A stretch of DNA of 33,327 nucleotides from an uncultured Paraprevotella sp. GTDB taxonomy: Bacteria > Bacteroidota > Bacteroidia > Bacteroidales > Bacteroidaceae. The position numbers and the translations under genes were made by a program. The notes beneath the pieces are model-generated. The model did not search any database and had not been told where the DNA came from. It was given only the letters and a program-made list of their open reading frames with translations. The stretch is from assembly GCA_944319925.1 (NCBI GenBank), contig CALUFQ010000034.1, positions 1-33,327 of the forward strand. Reading direction: 5' to 3'. This document shows, piece after piece, positions 1,959 to 31,000 of this stretch. Positions within the stretch are counted from its first letter, which is position 1, and every line of letters begins with the position of its first letter.

Positions 1959-4139
1959 TCAATTCGCCATCTCGGAAATGAACTTGATGCGCACCAGCCG
2001 CACATCCTCCTCCGTGTAGTCGCCGCCCAACTCGTCCATGGCCACGGAAAGGCTGTCCGTTTCCGAAGTCCGGAAATAGTCATAAATGTCCGCCACATGG
2101 TCTTCGTCCATCACATCGTCCAAAAAATAGTCGATGTTGAGTTTTGTGCCGGAATAGACGATTGCCTCTATCTCGTCCAACAACTCGCAAAAGTCAAGCC
2201 CCTTTGCCGAGGCAAGGTCATCAAGTGCCACCTTACGGTCTATGCTTTGAATGATGCTCACCTTCAGTTTGGACTTGTTCGCCACTGTGCGCACCCTAGA
2301 ATCTTCAGGCCGTTCAATCTCGTTTTCTTCACAATACTGACGTATCATATCGCAAAATTCCTTTCCGTAGCGTTTGGCCTTTCCGGCACCCACGCCCGGG
2401 ATATTCTGTAATTCTTCAATCGAAATAGGATAGACCGTGGCCATCGCCTCCAAAGAAGGATCTTGGAAAATGACATACGGGGGTACATCCAATTTCTTGG
2501 ACATCTTTTTACGCAAGTCCTTGAGAGCGTTGAAAAGCACCAAATCGGCAGCTCCCGTACCGCTTCCCGGGTGTGTCCCGTCATCTTCCTCTTCTTCGAA
2601 CTCGTTATCTTCGGAAACTTTGAAAGACTCGGGATTCTTCATGAACTTACGTCCTTTGGCTGTCAGTTTCAGAATGCCATAATTCTCAATCTCCTTTTCC
2701 AAATAACCGGCTATCAAAGCTTGACGCACCACGGCATTCCAAAACCTTGCATCATGTTCAAGCCCGCATCCGAAACAATCCAGCACGTTATGCTTATGAG
2801 CCACGACTTCGTCCGTCTCCCGCCCCGTCAGCACGTCTATCACATAATCGGCCTTGAAATGTTCCTTGATTGTCCCCACGACCTCCAAGAGCAGACCCAA
2901 CTCGTCCCTAGCCTCCACTTTTGCCTTGGGATGCAGGCAGTTGTCACAATTCCCGCAATTATCTTCCGGGTATTCCTCACCGAAATAATGCAGCAATACT
3001 TTACGGCGGCACACCGATGTCTCGGCGTATGCCGCTGTTTCGGAAAGGAGCTGCCGCCCGATGTCTTGTTCTGCCACGGGCTTTCCTTCCATGAACTTTT
3101 CCAGTTTTTGGAGGTCTTTGTAAGTGTAAAATGTGATGCACAGCCCCTCCCCTCCGTCGCGCCCGGCCCGGCCCGTCTCTTGATAGTAGCCTTCGAGGCT
3201 CTTGGGTATATCATAATGAATGACGAAACGTACATCCGGTTTGTCGATACCCATGCCGAATGCGATTGTTGCCACAATGACATCGATGCGTTCCATGATA
3301 AAATCGTCCTGCGTCTGGGAACGTGTCACGGAGTCCATTCCCGCATGGTAAGCCCGCGCGTTGATGTTGTTGGCCCGCAGGATTTCGGCCAATTCTTCCA
3401 CCTTCTTGCGGCTCAGGCAATAAATGATGCCGCTCTTCCCCGGATGCTGCCGGATGAACTTGATAATGTCGCGATCCACATTGCAGGTCTTGTTCCGCAC
3501 CTCGTAGTATAGGTTCGGACGGTTGAAGGAACTTTTGAATTCCGCCACCCTTGTCATTGCCAAACTTTTTTGTATGTCACCCCGCACCTTGTCCGTAGCC
3601 GTGGCAGTCAAAGCTATCACAGGAGCTTTTCCTATCACATTGATAATAGGACGTATCTTCCGGTATTCGGGCCGGAAGTCATGCCCCCATTCGGAAATGC
3701 AATGCGCCTCATCCACGGCATAGAAAGAAATTTTGACTTGATGGAGGAAATCCACATACTCGTCCTTCGTCAATGACTCCGGAGCGACATACAACAGTTT
3801 TGTCCGTCCCTCCAATATATCCTTTTTGACGGCTTCCACCGCCCCCTTGGTCAACGAAGAATTGATGAAATGGGCCACACCGTCATCGCCACATATTGCC
3901 CGGATGGCATCCACTTGGTTTTTCATCAAGGCAATCAGGGGAGATATGACAATGGCCATACCTTCCATCAGGAGAGCCGGCAACTGATAGCACAAAGACT
4001 TCCCCCCTCCTGTGGGCATCAATACGAACGTGTCTCTCCCCGCAAGCACACTTCGTATTATGGCTTCCTGATCGCCCTTGAAGGTGTCAAAGCCAAAATA
4101 CCGTTTCAGAGGTTCTACCAGATTCAGTGTTGCATCCAT
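1959..4139 (-). CDS. recQ: ATP-dependent DNA helicase RecQ
   Basis: 3'-5' DNA helicase for recombination and repair. The 726-residue product shows helicase motif I MPTGGGKS at residues 41-48, the DEAH box at 143-146, motif III LTATAT, and motif VI YQETGRAGRDG. A zinc-binding cysteine cluster (CRRKVLLHYFGEEYP then CGNCDNC) is followed by an RQC winged helix around 410-520. An acidic linker (EFEEEEDDG) leads to an HRDC domain beginning near LVLFNALKDLRKKMSK, and a ~110-residue extra tail follows. That longer form is common in Bacteroidota. It is a single gene facing purA. Its promoter is bracketed by an 18-bp perfect inverted repeat, one arm of which lies just before the start codon. Confidence 0.95.
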   Translation of the reverse strand: MDATLNLVEPLKRYFGFDTFKGDQEAIIRSVLAGRDTFVLMPTGGGKSLCYQLPALLMEGMAIVISPLIALMKNQVDAIRAICGDDGVAHFINSSLTKGAVEAVKKDILEGRTKLLYVAPESLTKDEYVDFLHQVKISFYAVDEAHCISEWGHDFRPEYRKIRPIINVIGKAPVIALTATATDKVRGDIQKSLAMTRVAEFKSSFNRPNLYYEVRNKTCNVDRDIIKFIRQHPGKSGIIYCLSRKKVEELAEILRANNINARAYHAGMDSVTRSQTQDDFIMERIDVIVATIAFGMGIDKPDVRFVIHYDIPKSLEGYYQETGRAGRDGGEGLCITFYTYKDLQKLEKFMEGKPVAEQDIGRQLLSETAAYAETSVCRRKVLLHYFGEEYPEDNCGNCDNCLHPKAKVEARDELGLLLEVVGTIKEHFKADYVIDVLTGRETDEVVAHKHNVLDCFGCGLEHDARFWNAVVRQALIAGYLEKEIENYGILKLTAKGRKFMKNPESFKVSEDNEFEEEEDDGTHPGSGTGAADLVLFNALKDLRKKMSKKLDVPPYVIFQDPSLEAMATVYPISIEELQNIPGVGAGKAKRYGKEFCDMIRQYCEENEIERPEDSRVRTVANKSKLKVSIIQSIDRKVALDDLASAKGLDFCELLDEIEAIVYSGTKLNIDYFLDDVMDEDHVADIYDYFRTSETDSLSVAMDELGGDYTEEDVRLVRIKFISEMAN

Positions 4140-4141
4140 AT

Positions 4142-4243
4142 AAAATAGTTTCCCGATAAAATCAAATCTAAGTTTAACCTTGTTGTTCCTAACAAAGTTA
4201 TAAACAAATACCTCATATTTGCAAATTATCGGGAAACTATTTT
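4142..4243. repeat. 18-bp perfect inverted repeat bracketing the recQ promoter
   Basis: AAAATAGTTTCCCGATAA at 4142-4159 is repeated exactly in inverse at 4226-4243, leaving 66 bp between the arms. The enclosed DNA holds the whole recQ promoter: the upstream arm abuts the -33 box and the downstream arm ends 2 bp before the ATG. Possible roles are an invertible promoter or a pair of operator sites; the sequence alone does not decide. Confidence 0.85.
4193..4225 (-). promoter_or_regulatory. recQ promoter (-33 TTTG / -7 TAACTTTG)
   Basis: On the minus strand, TTTG (4225-4222) is followed after 21 bp by TAACTTTG (4200-4193), an exact TAnnTTTG box. Transcription would start near 4186 and give a ~47-nt leader to recQ. 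Confidence 0.75.
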
Positions 4244-20778: not shown

Positions 20779-23052
20779 ATGGATATCAAGGACATCACCG
20801 CATGCCTGATTGCCCTGACCCTGGCAACCGGCGGGGCAACAGCCCAAGGCACATTGGAAGACTACCGGAGGGCTTATTCCCTCCACGACAAGTTCAACGC
20901 CACCCGCGTGTATGACGACCCGGCGGAAATCCGCTGGGACAACGACAGCGTGTTCCATTATTTCACATACACTGCAGAAGGAAGGGCATATCACATCGGC
21001 ACGGCGGACGGAAAAGCCGATGCCGCCAATGTCCGCGCCGTCCACATGGACGCGCTGGCCGCCCTGCTCGCCCGCGAGACGGGAAAGGAAGTGCGGCGGG
21101 ACGCCCTCGTGCTAGACCGCTTCGCCACTGATGCGACCCGCCCGGAAGGCATCGCTTTCCGCTACGGCGGATTCCGGTGGATTGTGGAACAGGCTTGCGG
21201 AGACAGCCTGCGGCTGGCCGAAAAGAAACCGTTGCCACCGGAAAGACCACGTGGGAACACACGCCACTGGATGGAAGTGGACGACGAGCGGGACGCGGCC
21301 CCCGTGCCCTCCCCCGACGGAAAACTGCGGGCCTACATCAAGAATGACAACGTGTATGTCTGCGACGCGGATGGAAAAAACGAACGCGCATTGAGCAACG
21401 ACGGCACGGCAGGAAACTATTATTCCAGTTGGATCAAGTGGAGCCCGGACGGCAAGAAAGTATGTACCAACAAAATCCGACCGGCCGCCAAACGGTATGT
21501 CCATTACGTGGAAAGCTCGCCTGCAAGCCAGCTGCAACCCATACTCCACCGGCAGGAATATGCCAAGCCGGGCGACGAACTGCGATTCAAGGTGCCATGC
21601 GTGTTCTATGTCGAAAGCGGGAAAGCCGTCATTCCCTCCACGGAACTCTTCAACCGCCAATATGACCTCTACGGCCCCGAATGGAGCGAAGACAGCCGGA
21701 CGCTGACCTTCGAGTACAACGAACGCGGGCACCAGACGTACCGCATGCTGGAGCTCAACGCCGAAACAGGCGACGTGCGGACACTGGTGGAGGAAACCAG
21801 CCCCACCTTTGTCGTCTATAACCGCATCTTCCGCCACAAGCTGAAGGACGGGAAACGGATGCTGTGGACAAGCGAGCGGGACAATTGGAACCACCTCTAC
21901 ATGATTGACTTGGAAAAAGGTTCTGTTGACCGCCAAATCACACGGGGCGAATGGGTCGTGCGCCAAGTGCTCAAGGTGGACGAAGACCGGCAGGCCATCT
22001 ACTTCGCGGCCAGTGGCGTGAATCCCGGCGAAGACCCCTACCATATACATTATTATAGGATAGGCATGGACGGCAAAGACATGGTGTGCCTCACGCCCGA
22101 GCCGGGCAACCACACCGCCGTGTTCAACAAAGACTTCACGCTGCTTATTGACAAATACTCCACCGTGGACCGCGCACCCGTCACCCTCCTGCGCGGCACG
22201 GTAAACCCGGAGGATTGCCGGACGCTGGCCCGGGCGGACATCAGCCTGCTCGAAAAAGACGGCTGGACGCCCCCGGAAGTGTTCGCCGCCCCGGGGCGCG
22301 ACGGCAAGACCCCGATGTGGGGCATCATCCAGCGGCCCACGAATTTCGACCCGCAAAAGACCTATCCCGTCATTGAGTACATCTATGCCGGGCCGGGCGA
22401 TGCCTACACGCCGAAAAGCTTCGCCCCCTACAACTGGAACATGACGGCATTGGCCGAACTGGGCTTCATCGTCGTGCAGCTGGATGCCATGGGCACGTCC
22501 TACCGAGGCAAGAAGTTCGAGGATGTGTGCCACAAGAACCTGAAAGATGCCGGATTCCCCGACCGCATCGCATGGATCAAGGCCGCCGCCGAAAAATATC
22601 CTTGCATGGACACCGCCCGCGTGGGCATCTTCGGGGCTTCGGCAGGCGGACAGGAAGCCATGGCCGCCGTGCTCTTTCATCCGGAGTTCTACAAGGCGGC
22701 CTACTCCAGCTGCGGCTGCCACGACAACCGCATGGACAAAATCTGGTGGAACGAGCAATGGATGGGCTATCCCGTGGACAGCAGCTACGTGGCCTGCTCC
22801 AACGTGGAAAACGCCCACCGGCTGACGCGCCCGCTCATGCTCGTGGTGGGCGAAATGGACGACAACGTGGATCCCGCCTCCACCATGCAAGTCGTGAACG
22901 CGCTCATCAAGGCCGGCAAAGACTTCGAACTGGTCGTGCTGCCCGGAGTGAGGCACACGATGGGTGAACGCTACGGCGAACACAAACGTTTCGATTTCTT
23001 CGTGGAACACCTGCTAGGTGTCCGTTCCCCGGATTGGAACGAACTGCAATAG
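20779..23052 (+). CDS. S9 family peptidase (dipeptidyl-peptidase IV-like)
   Basis: Exported serine exopeptidase of the prolyl-oligopeptidase clan, 757 residues. A signal peptide (ITACLIALTLATGGATAQ) precedes an N-terminal DPP-IV-type beta-propeller (about 60-500; blades such as APVPSPDGKLRAYIKNDNVYV and WIKWSPDGKKV). The alpha/beta hydrolase domain follows (about 510-750). Catalytic Ser is in GIFGASAGGQ, a slightly unusual form of the more common G-W/G-S-Y-G-G. Asp is in VVGEMDDNVDP and His in LPGVRHTMG. It is third in the operon with the membrane protein and the heme-motif propeller, so it may process peptides in the same envelope pathway. Confidence 0.9.
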   Translation: MDIKDITACLIALTLATGGATAQGTLEDYRRAYSLHDKFNATRVYDDPAEIRWDNDSVFHYFTYTAEGRAYHIGTADGKADAANVRAVHMDALAALLARETGKEVRRDALVLDRFATDATRPEGIAFRYGGFRWIVEQACGDSLRLAEKKPLPPERPRGNTRHWMEVDDERDAAPVPSPDGKLRAYIKNDNVYVCDADGKNERALSNDGTAGNYYSSWIKWSPDGKKVCTNKIRPAAKRYVHYVESSPASQLQPILHRQEYAKPGDELRFKVPCVFYVESGKAVIPSTELFNRQYDLYGPEWSEDSRTLTFEYNERGHQTYRMLELNAETGDVRTLVEETSPTFVVYNRIFRHKLKDGKRMLWTSERDNWNHLYMIDLEKGSVDRQITRGEWVVRQVLKVDEDRQAIYFAASGVNPGEDPYHIHYYRIGMDGKDMVCLTPEPGNHTAVFNKDFTLLIDKYSTVDRAPVTLLRGTVNPEDCRTLARADISLLEKDGWTPPEVFAAPGRDGKTPMWGIIQRPTNFDPQKTYPVIEYIYAGPGDAYTPKSFAPYNWNMTALAELGFIVVQLDAMGTSYRGKKFEDVCHKNLKDAGFPDRIAWIKAAAEKYPCMDTARVGIFGASAGGQEAMAAVLFHPEFYKAAYSSCGCHDNRMDKIWWNEQWMGYPVDSSYVACSNVENAHRLTRPLMLVVGEMDDNVDPASTMQVVNALIKAGKDFELVVLPGVRHTMGERYGEHKRFDFFVEHLLGVRSPDWNELQ

Positions 23053-23083
23053 GAAATTCTTTTTTATGGATTGACGGGATTCA

Positions 23084-23248
23084 TCTCTAGGGAAGAGATA
23101 AATCCTTTGTGCAAAGATAAGCTTTATTTGACTTCCGGCAAAAGGAAACGTGAGAAAAGAAAAAATCCTCGCGTTTCTTTTAACATATATGCCCATTAAA
23201 CGTTGTCTGCCAACGAATGGCCTTCCCGGTTTATCTCTTCCCTAGAGA
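23084..23248. repeat. 19-bp perfect inverted repeat enclosing 127 bp: candidate invertible promoter
   Basis: TCTCTAGGGAAGAGATAAA at 23084-23102 occurs exactly inverted at 23230-23248. Each arm has its own dyad (TCTCT-AGGGA-AGAGA), as expected for recombinase half-sites around a short core. The enclosed 127 bp has a full consensus promoter facing left, away from the lipoprotein gene at 23285. No TAnnTTTG box faces right between 23053 and 23285. This is the structure of a phase-variable promoter in its OFF state. Confidence 0.85.
23112..23142 (-). promoter_or_regulatory. Consensus promoter inside the candidate invertible segment (facing left)
   Basis: On the minus strand TTTG (23142-23139), a 19-bp spacer and TATCTTTG (23119-23112) match -33/-7 perfectly. 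The only gene in that direction is the 3' end of the S9 peptidase, read antisense. If the segment flipped, the promoter would sit about 64 bp upstream of the lipoprotein ATG. Confidence 0.8.
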
Positions 23249-23284
23249 GCAACTATTTTTATTCACACAAAAGGCTAAATTGAT

Positions 23285-24280
23285 ATGAAAAAGATTTTCT
23301 GGTTTGCAGCTTGTTGCCTGTTGGCAACCGGGTTCACGGCATGTAATGACGATGACGACGAAAATGGAAACGGAAATGGAAATGGAAATGGAACCGAAAC
23401 TCCCGGCACGACGCCCCCGGACGTGACCACAGACTTGGGCATCCAGTTCCCTGTCACTTCCATCGGCGGGGATGAAGATGCCTTCTTCCAATACACGGAC
23501 GGAAGGCTGACTAGCGGACATACCGATGTCGACCTCAATTTCACCATCTCGCAAAACCCGCTCGTCATCAACTCGTCTTGGACTGACGAAGACGGCGGCT
23601 TCACCGAGACTTACAACAACATCCAAGTCAACGGCAGCGGCTTTATCACCTCGGCCAATTATACGGCCACGGACACATACGAGGGTGAAACAGATCATTA
23701 CACCGCCACTGCCACCGCCCAATATGACGCGGACGGGCACATCACGGAAAAGAAAGTAAACATGCGGGACGAGGAAAGCACGGACAATTGGACCATCACC
23801 TACACGTGGACGGACGGCAACCTGACGCGCATCTTCATCAACGAACAATACACGGAGTCGGGGTATGGAACCGAGAATTCCACGGAGACCTACGAATACA
23901 CCTATGACCCGGATCCCGCGAAGAACCCCAACACCGGCATTTACCTGTATGAAATGTGGTACCAAACTTACGATTTCATGTGGTATGCAGGCTTGCTGGG
24001 CAAGACCACCCGCAACATGCCCACGGGTATGACATGCGTTTATACGGAAGACGGGAGTGAAACATACCGTCAAACTTACACTTTCACCACAAGCTACAAC
24101 AGCGACAACGCCGTAGCCTCCTTGGAATACCGCACTCCCGGTGCCAGCTATCCATCCCGCATATATACCTATGGATACGACGGGACAAATCCGCAAACAA
24201 GCTACGCTTCCTGGCAAAAGAAAGGCATGGAGGCAAAGAAAGGATTCCGCGCCCGGCTGAAAGAGCGGATGGGGAAATAG
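23285..24280 (+). CDS. Surface-exposed lipoprotein, DUF4595-like
   Basis: A 331-residue lipoprotein. Signal peptide MKKIFWFAACCLLATGFTAC has the acylated Cys at 20. It is followed at once by NDDDDE, an acidic stretch like the Bacteroidota surface lipoprotein export signal, and by a GNGNGNGNG/Pro-Thr spacer. The rest is made of beta-strand repeats of the form YTATATAQYDADGHITEKK, ITYTWTDGNLTRIF, YEYTYDP, matching the DUF4595-type repeats found in Bacteroides lipoproteins; ligand unknown. A Lys/Arg-rich tail ends the protein. The gene lies behind the candidate invertible segment and ends at a strong terminator, so it is expressed as a single unit. Confidence 0.85.
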   Translation: MKKIFWFAACCLLATGFTACNDDDDENGNGNGNGNGTETPGTTPPDVTTDLGIQFPVTSIGGDEDAFFQYTDGRLTSGHTDVDLNFTISQNPLVINSSWTDEDGGFTETYNNIQVNGSGFITSANYTATDTYEGETDHYTATATAQYDADGHITEKKVNMRDEESTDNWTITYTWTDGNLTRIFINEQYTESGYGTENSTETYEYTYDPDPAKNPNTGIYLYEMWYQTYDFMWYAGLLGKTTRNMPTGMTCVYTEDGSETYRQTYTFTTSYNSDNAVASLEYRTPGASYPSRIYTYGYDGTNPQTSYASWQKKGMEAKKGFRARLKERMGK

Positions 24281-24343
24281 AACGGACATAGCTAAAACGG
24301 TAAAAACCTTTAGGGACTTCCAAAATTTATATCGCCAACATGC

Positions 24344-24378
24344 GCGGTGTGCCTGACTCCAAAGGCACACCGCTTTTT
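24344..24378 (+). terminator. Terminator of the surface lipoprotein gene
   Basis: An 11-bp perfect stem (GCGGTGTGCCT at 24344-24354 with AGGCACACCGC at 24363-24373), an 8-nt loop, then TTTTTAT. It lies 64 bp after the stop. Confidence 0.93.
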
Positions 24379-24396
24379 ATACTGTGCGCAGTGTTA

Positions 24397-24545
24397 TAGG
24401 AGGTGCAGCATTCCTGCAGCACACACGCAAGATAGGTCACTGACATACACAATAGTGGGGATATGAGGGTGTATCAAGACCTGCGAGAAGCAACTGCTCC
24501 GCGTTGTAGAGGGAGCTGGCCCAACGGGCCTGAGGGGTTTCACAC
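24397..24545 (+). repeat. Composite intergenic repeat, copy 1
   Basis: It begins with the hairpin GGTGCAGCATTCCTGCAGC, continues through GGTCACTGACATAC and ATATGAGGGTGTATCAA, and ends with the CTCCGC-TTGTAG-GGGAG/GGCCCAACGGGCC/TGAGGGGTTTCAC block. The same order of blocks is found at 30744-30879, and part of it in inverse at 30917-31000. The region to 24658 has no convincing gene. Confidence 0.8.
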
Positions 24546-30743: not shown

Positions 30744-30879
30744 TAGGAGGTGCGGCATTCCTGCCGCACAATCGCAAAATTGGTCACTGGCATACGCAAT
30801 AGTGCGAATATGAGGATGTAGCAAAATAAACTCCTCCGCCTTGTAGGGGAGGTGGCGCGAAGCGACGGAGGGGTCTCAC
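30744..30879 (+). repeat. Composite intergenic repeat, copy 2
   Basis: Same block order as 24397-24545: hairpin GGTGCGGCATTCCTGCC, GGTCACTGGCATACGCAATAG, ATATGAGGATGTA, then CTCCGCCTTGTAGGGGAG and GGAGGGGTCTCACG. Confidence 0.8.
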
Positions 30880-30916
30880 GTCCACAAAGACATACTTTAT
30901 GTGTGTGTCCGTGGGC

Positions 30917-31000
30917 GTGAAACCCCTCAGGCCCGTTGGGCCAGCTCCCCTACAAGGCGGAGCAGTTCCTTCTCGCTGGTTTTGATACACCCTCCTCCTA
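30917..31000 (-). repeat. Composite intergenic repeat, inverted partial copy
   Basis: On the minus strand GGGTGTATCAAAACCAGCGA, GGAACTGCTCCGCCTTG, GGGCCTGAGGGGTTTCACG follow the order of copy 1. It faces copy 2, making a large imperfect palindrome around 30880-30916. Confidence 0.75.

Follow-up and report, generated by a model that had tools for sequence, protein, structure and literature searches.

An inverton survey by Jiang et al. 2019 reportedly describes the same architecture as the one considered here. This architecture is also described in two other inverton surveys (PMC11892184, PMC8748976), according to which tyrosine-type invertases are enriched beside the elements. The second of these lists Paraprevotella xylaniphila as the host of an invertible promoter, and it was the only source that looked relevant in a literature search for invertible promoters or phase variation in Paraprevotella. 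In Bacteroides fragilis, BF2766 (Tsr19) is described as a Tsr-type tyrosine recombinase that acts on a distant promoter (PMC4747536), and Mpi as the global invertase of the capsule promoters (PMC12632263). According to PMC13114119, a capsule promoter of Phocaeicola vulgatus inverts despite a defective neighbouring recombinase, which was attributed to a recombinase elsewhere in the genome. In Bacteroides thetaiotaomicron, the BT1927-type S-layer lipoprotein is described as phase-variable, and phage resistance has been reported for it (PMC12548429).

The locus described here lies in a 33,327-nucleotide stretch of DNA from an uncultured Paraprevotella sp. (the window, meaning the whole stretch). 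Its positions 23084-23248 were interpreted, with a probability of nearly nine in ten, as an inverton, an invertible promoter through which the lipoprotein gene at 23285 undergoes phase variation. As described for BF2766/Tsr19 (PMC4747536), a promoter is placed between inverted repeats, the likeness being one of architecture. In contrast to that system, no element was found next to the candidate enzyme, and the site family is common to 11 promoters or more. The proposal of one enzyme working in trans on many surface-locus promoters resembles Mpi, and the inversion proposed for the window, by an enzyme encoded away from the locus, resembles the P. vulgatus case, although the target there is a capsule operon with UpxY and the target here is a lone lipoprotein gene. 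The likeness to BT1927, as described in PMC12548429, is that of a surface lipoprotein with a flipping, repeat-flanked promoter and concerns the arrangement of the switch.

Anatomy of the locus

A sequence-only reading of this stretch had proposed an invertible promoter, currently OFF, between perfect 19-bp inverted repeats around 127 bp. The repeats were confirmed, and the features of the locus are as follows, where G000 denotes the Paraprevotella genome carrying the window, G0xx the other genomes of the genus, and Cnn a contig.

23084-23102, plus strand: left arm, TCTCTAGGGAAGAGATAAA, a recombinase-site-like dyad TCTCT-AGGGA-AGAGA with the site-family pattern
23103-23229, no strand: putative invertible segment of 127 bp, assembled OFF, from its sequence and its flipped alignment to G010
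23112-23142, minus strand: promoter, TTTG-N19-TATCTTTG, leftward, towards the S9 peptidase gene (3' end)
23230-23248, minus strand: right arm, which reverse-complements the left one exactly
23285-24280, plus strand: target, a 331-aa lipoprotein gene with no Pfam or NCBIfam family match above cut-off
20779-23052, plus strand: upstream neighbour, an S9 (DPP IV-type) peptidase, assigned by Pfam
G000:C32:33120-34322: candidate tyrosine recombinase C32, 401 aa, uninterrupted frame

The 127-bp segment contains a single Bacteroidales-type promoter with its -33 element at 23142-23139 and its -7 box at 23119-23112 on the minus strand, and its leftward course into the end of the S9 gene was read correctly from the letters. 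The S9 peptidase gene ends to the left of the segment and has the same direction as the lipoprotein gene, which starts 36 bp past the right arm. From the S9 stop codon to the ATG of the lipoprotein gene, no TAnnTTTG box was found on the plus strand, in agreement with the earlier statement that no promoter box faces the lipoprotein gene, and the state as assembled is OFF. After a flip, the -7 box comes to lie at 23213-23220, 64 nt 5' of the ATG at 23285, the distance that had been estimated before as about 64 bp. The stretch 22900-23500 showed no terminator-like site, and since the S9 gene is co-directional, read-through could give basal expression of the lipoprotein, so that the OFF state is possibly leaky. 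An origin of the locus in a phage or virus was considered and rejected, as 22800-24400 had no match in the phage collection and the lipoprotein had no relative in viral contigs.

For arms 30 to 400 bp apart, the 19-bp pair is the longest perfect inverted repeat in the window; 100 first-order Markov shuffles of its sequence gave longest arms of 11.8 bp on average and of 15 bp at most. Two further inverted-repeat pairs of 18 bp are present in the window, at 4142-4243 and 30834-30962. Arm length alone therefore does not mark the 23084-23248 pair, which is marked by its membership in a site family.

The pair at 4142-4243 is perfect, has 66 bp between its arms, and surrounds a consensus promoter facing recQ (1959-4139, minus strand). 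The region matched in 17 of the 18 genus genomes (own genome included), the promoter was oriented alike in the window and in five relatives that were compared, and at least one relative (L259) had the same base change in both arms, CCCGATAA/TTATCGG to CCCAATAA/TTATTGG. This element could be a symmetrical control element with a fixed orientation, or else an inverton of another class. The pair at 30834-30962, CTCCGCCTTGTAGGGGAG, has an arm that recurs beside the lipoprotein locus of G000:C86 (L202) and is possibly a dispersed repeat.

Site family of the arms and candidate recombinase

The arms belong to the site family TCTCTTnnnAAGAGA, of which the TCTCT/AGAGA dyad already noticed in the letters is the signature. 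The 18 genus genomes were searched with TCTCTTnnnAAGAGATA, allowing one mismatch, and the window's genome gave 18 matches versus 2 for the reversed-pattern control. Pairs were then defined as two TCTCTnnnnnAGAGA sites 130 to 190 bp apart. This paired pattern was found in 51 of 301 genomes of the taxonomic family, which are a sample of a larger group, with nine pairs in the window's genome and no match to the reversed-pattern control. When the window's genome was read, 11 clear pairs were recognized (on C34, C42, C78, C12, C7, C61, C13, C17, and C86, and two on C18), and in a twelfth, on C14, the second arm was judged by eye to be degraded.

Conserved half-sites around a centre particular to each pair are the established trace of a site-specific recombinase for which the exchanged stretch must be identical. 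In 73 of the 74 pairs listed, the five centre bases were equal between the arms in the inverted register, compared with none in the direct register. There were 46 different centres among these 74, and random dealing of the right arms gave a mean of 2.1 agreements and a maximum of 8. The sole mismatch consisted of two sites of a three-site cluster, and 20 pairs listed in G275 and G316, one of which overlaps the 74, all had agreeing centres by eye. If the centre rule is applied here, the arms of the family look as expected for recombinase crossover sites. A full-text literature search by motif letters gave no related paper by title; the motif may nonetheless be published and may be among the repeat motifs of the published inverton surveys.

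The promoters inside these elements were mostly one-directional. In all 11 clear pairs of the window's genome, a -7 box was present in one direction only, and eight of them had the full TTTG-N17..22-TAnnTTTG. Among 59 elements from the window's genome and ten other genus genomes, the -7 box pointed one way only in 52 and both ways in 4, and 3 had none; roughly one in four shuffled segments contained any such box. A full promoter by the strict pattern was present in 28 of 62 pairs listed, a count made before overlaps were removed. One element of the site family, on G000:C18 (L108:3405-3593), lies between genes that look divergent, so that either orientation could drive a gene, and a two-way rather than an on/off switch is possible there.

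The absence of the recombinase from the window, also stated in the sequence-only reading, was borne out, with no tyrosine recombinase (PF00589) on the window's contig. The genome contains five Phage_integrase proteins, of which two are Xer-sized and the other three are C32, C81, and C3. Mpi is a serine recombinase; unlike the Mpi system, the window's genome (99.43% complete) gave no PF00239 match in a search that matched 10 of 14 control genomes, and an invertase of that type was rejected. In C32, Phage_int_SAM_5 and Phage_integrase were found above cut-off, and Arm-DNA-bind_5 scored 22.3 bits, just below its cut-off of 22.6.

A C32 relative (E<=1e-80) was present in 50 of the 51 genomes with pairs versus 51 of the 250 without (Fisher p=2e-27, uncorrected for relatedness), the latter 51 genomes having a relative but no pair. 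Among those listed, 19 of 73 pairs lay within 1 kb of a listed C32 relative, and all 19 were located 20 to 470 bp beyond its 3' end. Within the genus, the C32 clade was found in 8 of 18 genomes, and at least two pairs were present in 8/8 genomes with the clade versus 2/10 without (Fisher p=0.001, uncorrected for relatedness). The corresponding fractions, clade present versus absent, were 6/8 and 4/10 for C81 and 3/5 and 7/13 for C3. Mann-Whitney tests on pair counts gave p=0.003 for C32 and p=0.006 for C81, both uncorrected for relatedness. Of the ten genus genomes with at least two pairs, the C32 clade was missing from two (G006 and G017), in each of which pairs directly adjoin other relatives, the C81 clade from four (G005, G006, G010, and G016), and the C3 clade, which was present in G003 and G009 without pairs, from seven; these clades were taken from a tree of 61 of the 140 recombinase matches, and G005, G006, and G016 are only 79 to 85% complete.

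Because C81 also correlates with pair counts, the genus alone does not decide the enzyme. It is conceivable that C81 or C3, or several recombinases redundantly, act on these arms instead of C32, and for C81 this agrees with its membership in the same wider family and with the higher pair counts of the genomes carrying its clade. However, a different inverted repeat, ACAGTATGAAACGG, with 154 bp between its arms, lies 38 bp past the C81 stop codon (L116), which suggests that this genome has a second class of inverton and that this enzyme has another site, and the C81 and C3 clades are missing from more of the pair-bearing genus genomes than that of C32. C32 is further favoured because C81 has this other repeat beside it and because relatives of C32 adjoin pairs elsewhere. 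The alternative enzymes were considered less likely, and C32 was regarded as the more probable recombinase for these arms on the basis of its co-occurrence and adjacency patterns. No pair with up to two mismatches was found within 1.5 kb of C32, the downstream side being covered for the 603 bp to the contig end, and with no pair nearby C32 would act in trans, much as described for BF2766 (PMC4747536).

Orientation in related genomes and sibling elements

The sequence-only reading had also proposed comparing the orientation of the segment across related genomes, and had named a lack of related genomes with the reversed orientation as evidence against its claim; the comparison instead yielded two orthologous loci, in G010 and P. 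clara, with the promoter towards the lipoprotein. The S9 peptidase gene is directly upstream of the lipoprotein gene in the sister species G010 (84.5% identity to the window's peptidase) and in P. clara YIT 11840 (74.7%), and 2.9 kb upstream of it in G008 (73.3%); the lipoprotein relatives are 69, 54, and 47% identical to the window lipoprotein. There are no repeats in G010 (CALULT010000071.1), whose orthologous lipoprotein gene has a promoter with an identical TATCTTTG box directed at it. This promoter aligned to the inner segment of the window with a score of 46 when flipped and 17 as is; none of 1,000 shuffles reached 46, the shuffle maximum being 32. In P. clara (G013:C31), the starts of the repeats TCTCTCCGTAAGAGAGCG are at -205 and -53 (window, -201 and -55), and the promoter faces the gene. 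The inner segments of P. clara and the window have no detectable similarity (scores of 16 and 15), and the P. clara promoter is predicted to be ON from its motif and from synteny. The distance from the -7 box to the ATG is 64 nt in the flipped window, 66 in G010, and 63 in P. clara. In G008, neither repeats nor a strict consensus promoter was found within 450 bp upstream. Both orientations therefore occur among related genomes, OFF in the window, ON with repeats in P. clara by the above prediction, and ON-directed without repeats in G010, with promoter homology for G010 only.

The present orientation might also have a function of its own, in a two-sided switch making an antisense transcript against the S9 peptidase, so that either the peptidase is down or the lipoprotein is up. 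The promoter does face the 3' end of the S9 gene, which is 60 bp from the -7 box, but the homologous promoter of G010 faces the lipoprotein in a locus where the repeats are absent, and such a two-sided switch was judged improbable.

Sibling elements of the family were compared between genomes by their flanks and inner segments. Of 31 comparisons that passed the flank filter, 18 were judgeable, with inner scores differing by 25 or more, a cut-off chosen after seeing the scores. Five of these 18 were inverted relative to the flanks, in three of nine orthologous groups, and the other six groups were concordant in orientation. One of the three groups with inversion includes the element on G000:C78, from the window's own genome, which is reversed compared with the orthologous elements of G010, G005, and G002. 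The remaining 13 comparisons, among them that of the window with P. clara, had too little inner similarity to judge, and 8 of these were nominally inverted.

Two adjacent elements were also observed on pMMCAT-type plasmids (L302-L306), between an integrase gene and an upxY capsule operon. The integrase of pMMCAT is 51.7% identical to the C32 recombinase and is followed by the two pairs, which are diverged but of the same type. Of the 20 plasmid records that matched the pMMCAT stretch, 13 aligned unbroken over its full length at >=99.8%, and another did so at 87%; in three the main match lacked the first 12% (owing to an insertion, read in one of them), and two ended at record ends. NZ_CP072238.1 spans the full stretch in two pieces, and its second element was found to be inverted on direct reading. 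Against NZ_CP072253.1, it had one mismatch in 871 bp after flipping one element, versus 139 as is. Inversion of siblings in these alignments indicates that the site family to which the window element belongs does invert.

With these inversions at hand, a chance inverted repeat around a promoter, or paired regulator sites without recombination, was considered very improbable. The repeat-flanked recQ promoter at 4142-4243, with its one orientation in all six sequences read (the window and five relatives), speaks in favour of this reading. However, the family-wide pattern with pair-specific centres, the adjacency of recombinases, and the sibling inversions caught are contrary to it. Loss of invertibility, by which the promoter would now be locked, with the arms remaining and the lipoprotein silent in this lineage, was thought to have little likelihood. 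One orientation was seen in the single genome of the species, and the promoter of the repeat-free sister species G010 is fixed, both of which are compatible with locking. The arms, however, are perfect over 19 bp, when unused arms should drift, as one of the arms at G000:C14 apparently did. The frame of the candidate recombinase is likewise uninterrupted, and the C78 sibling in the same genome is inverted relative to three relatives.

The original claim of an invertible promoter that is currently OFF is thus well supported by the site family, the orientation in relatives, and the sibling inversion. The window segment itself probably inverts, and we infer that its orientation affects expression of the lipoprotein. 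In the proposed mechanism, a tyrosine recombinase, most likely the 401-aa C32 acting in trans on the window element and at least 10 other promoters of the genome, would pair the two TCTCTnnnnnAGAGA arms. Strand exchange in the centre common to both arms would then invert the segment. In the ON orientation, the promoter would lie 64 nt before the lipoprotein ATG; in the OFF orientation, as assembled, it would face the end of the S9 peptidase gene, possibly leaving the lipoprotein gene with leaky expression.

The target lipoprotein and its family

On inspection by eye, the predicted lipoprotein shows a lipobox whose last residue is Cys20, with NDDDDE after it. This acidic stretch resembles the signal for surface export that PMC12632263 describes in lipoproteins of the Bacteroidales, and from this likeness we infer a surface location. 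A profile search with the lipoprotein gave 24 matches in 10 of the 18 genus genomes, 21 of them with E below 1e-20. Elements of the site family were present within 450 bp upstream of 6 of these 21 members, namely the window, G013:C31, G013:C21, G015:C42, G000:C86, and G002:C4. Two of the six were ON (G013:C31 and G000:C86) and four OFF; they are not all independent, as G013:C21 and G015:C42 are orthologous. A weak match on G000:C61 (E 1.7e-6, N-terminal part only), with its own element OFF, was excluded from the secure members. One lipoprotein family therefore recurs behind such switches. By analogy with BT1927, the switch in the window may have an adaptive role, for example in phage resistance.

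We tentatively propose, at somewhat less than even odds, that an orphan tyrosine recombinase is the master invertase of Paraprevotella, acting in trans to produce a combinatorial surface from at least 11 promoters, which repeatedly include those of one lipoprotein family. The switch in the window may have been built around, or may have collapsed into, an ordinary fixed promoter like that of G010. Invertible promoters are already known in the Bacteroidales, and what is added here is the trans-acting enzyme as proposed, the recurrent lipoprotein family, and the comparison of three states. The results describe a probable case of phase variation through inversion of a promoter at one defined lipoprotein locus of Paraprevotella. 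They also point to a recombinase that may act there in trans and give the sites a signature that can be searched for. With the same locus found as invertible-OFF, as apparently invertible-ON, and as repeat-free in related species, the gain and loss of invertible promoters becomes testable.
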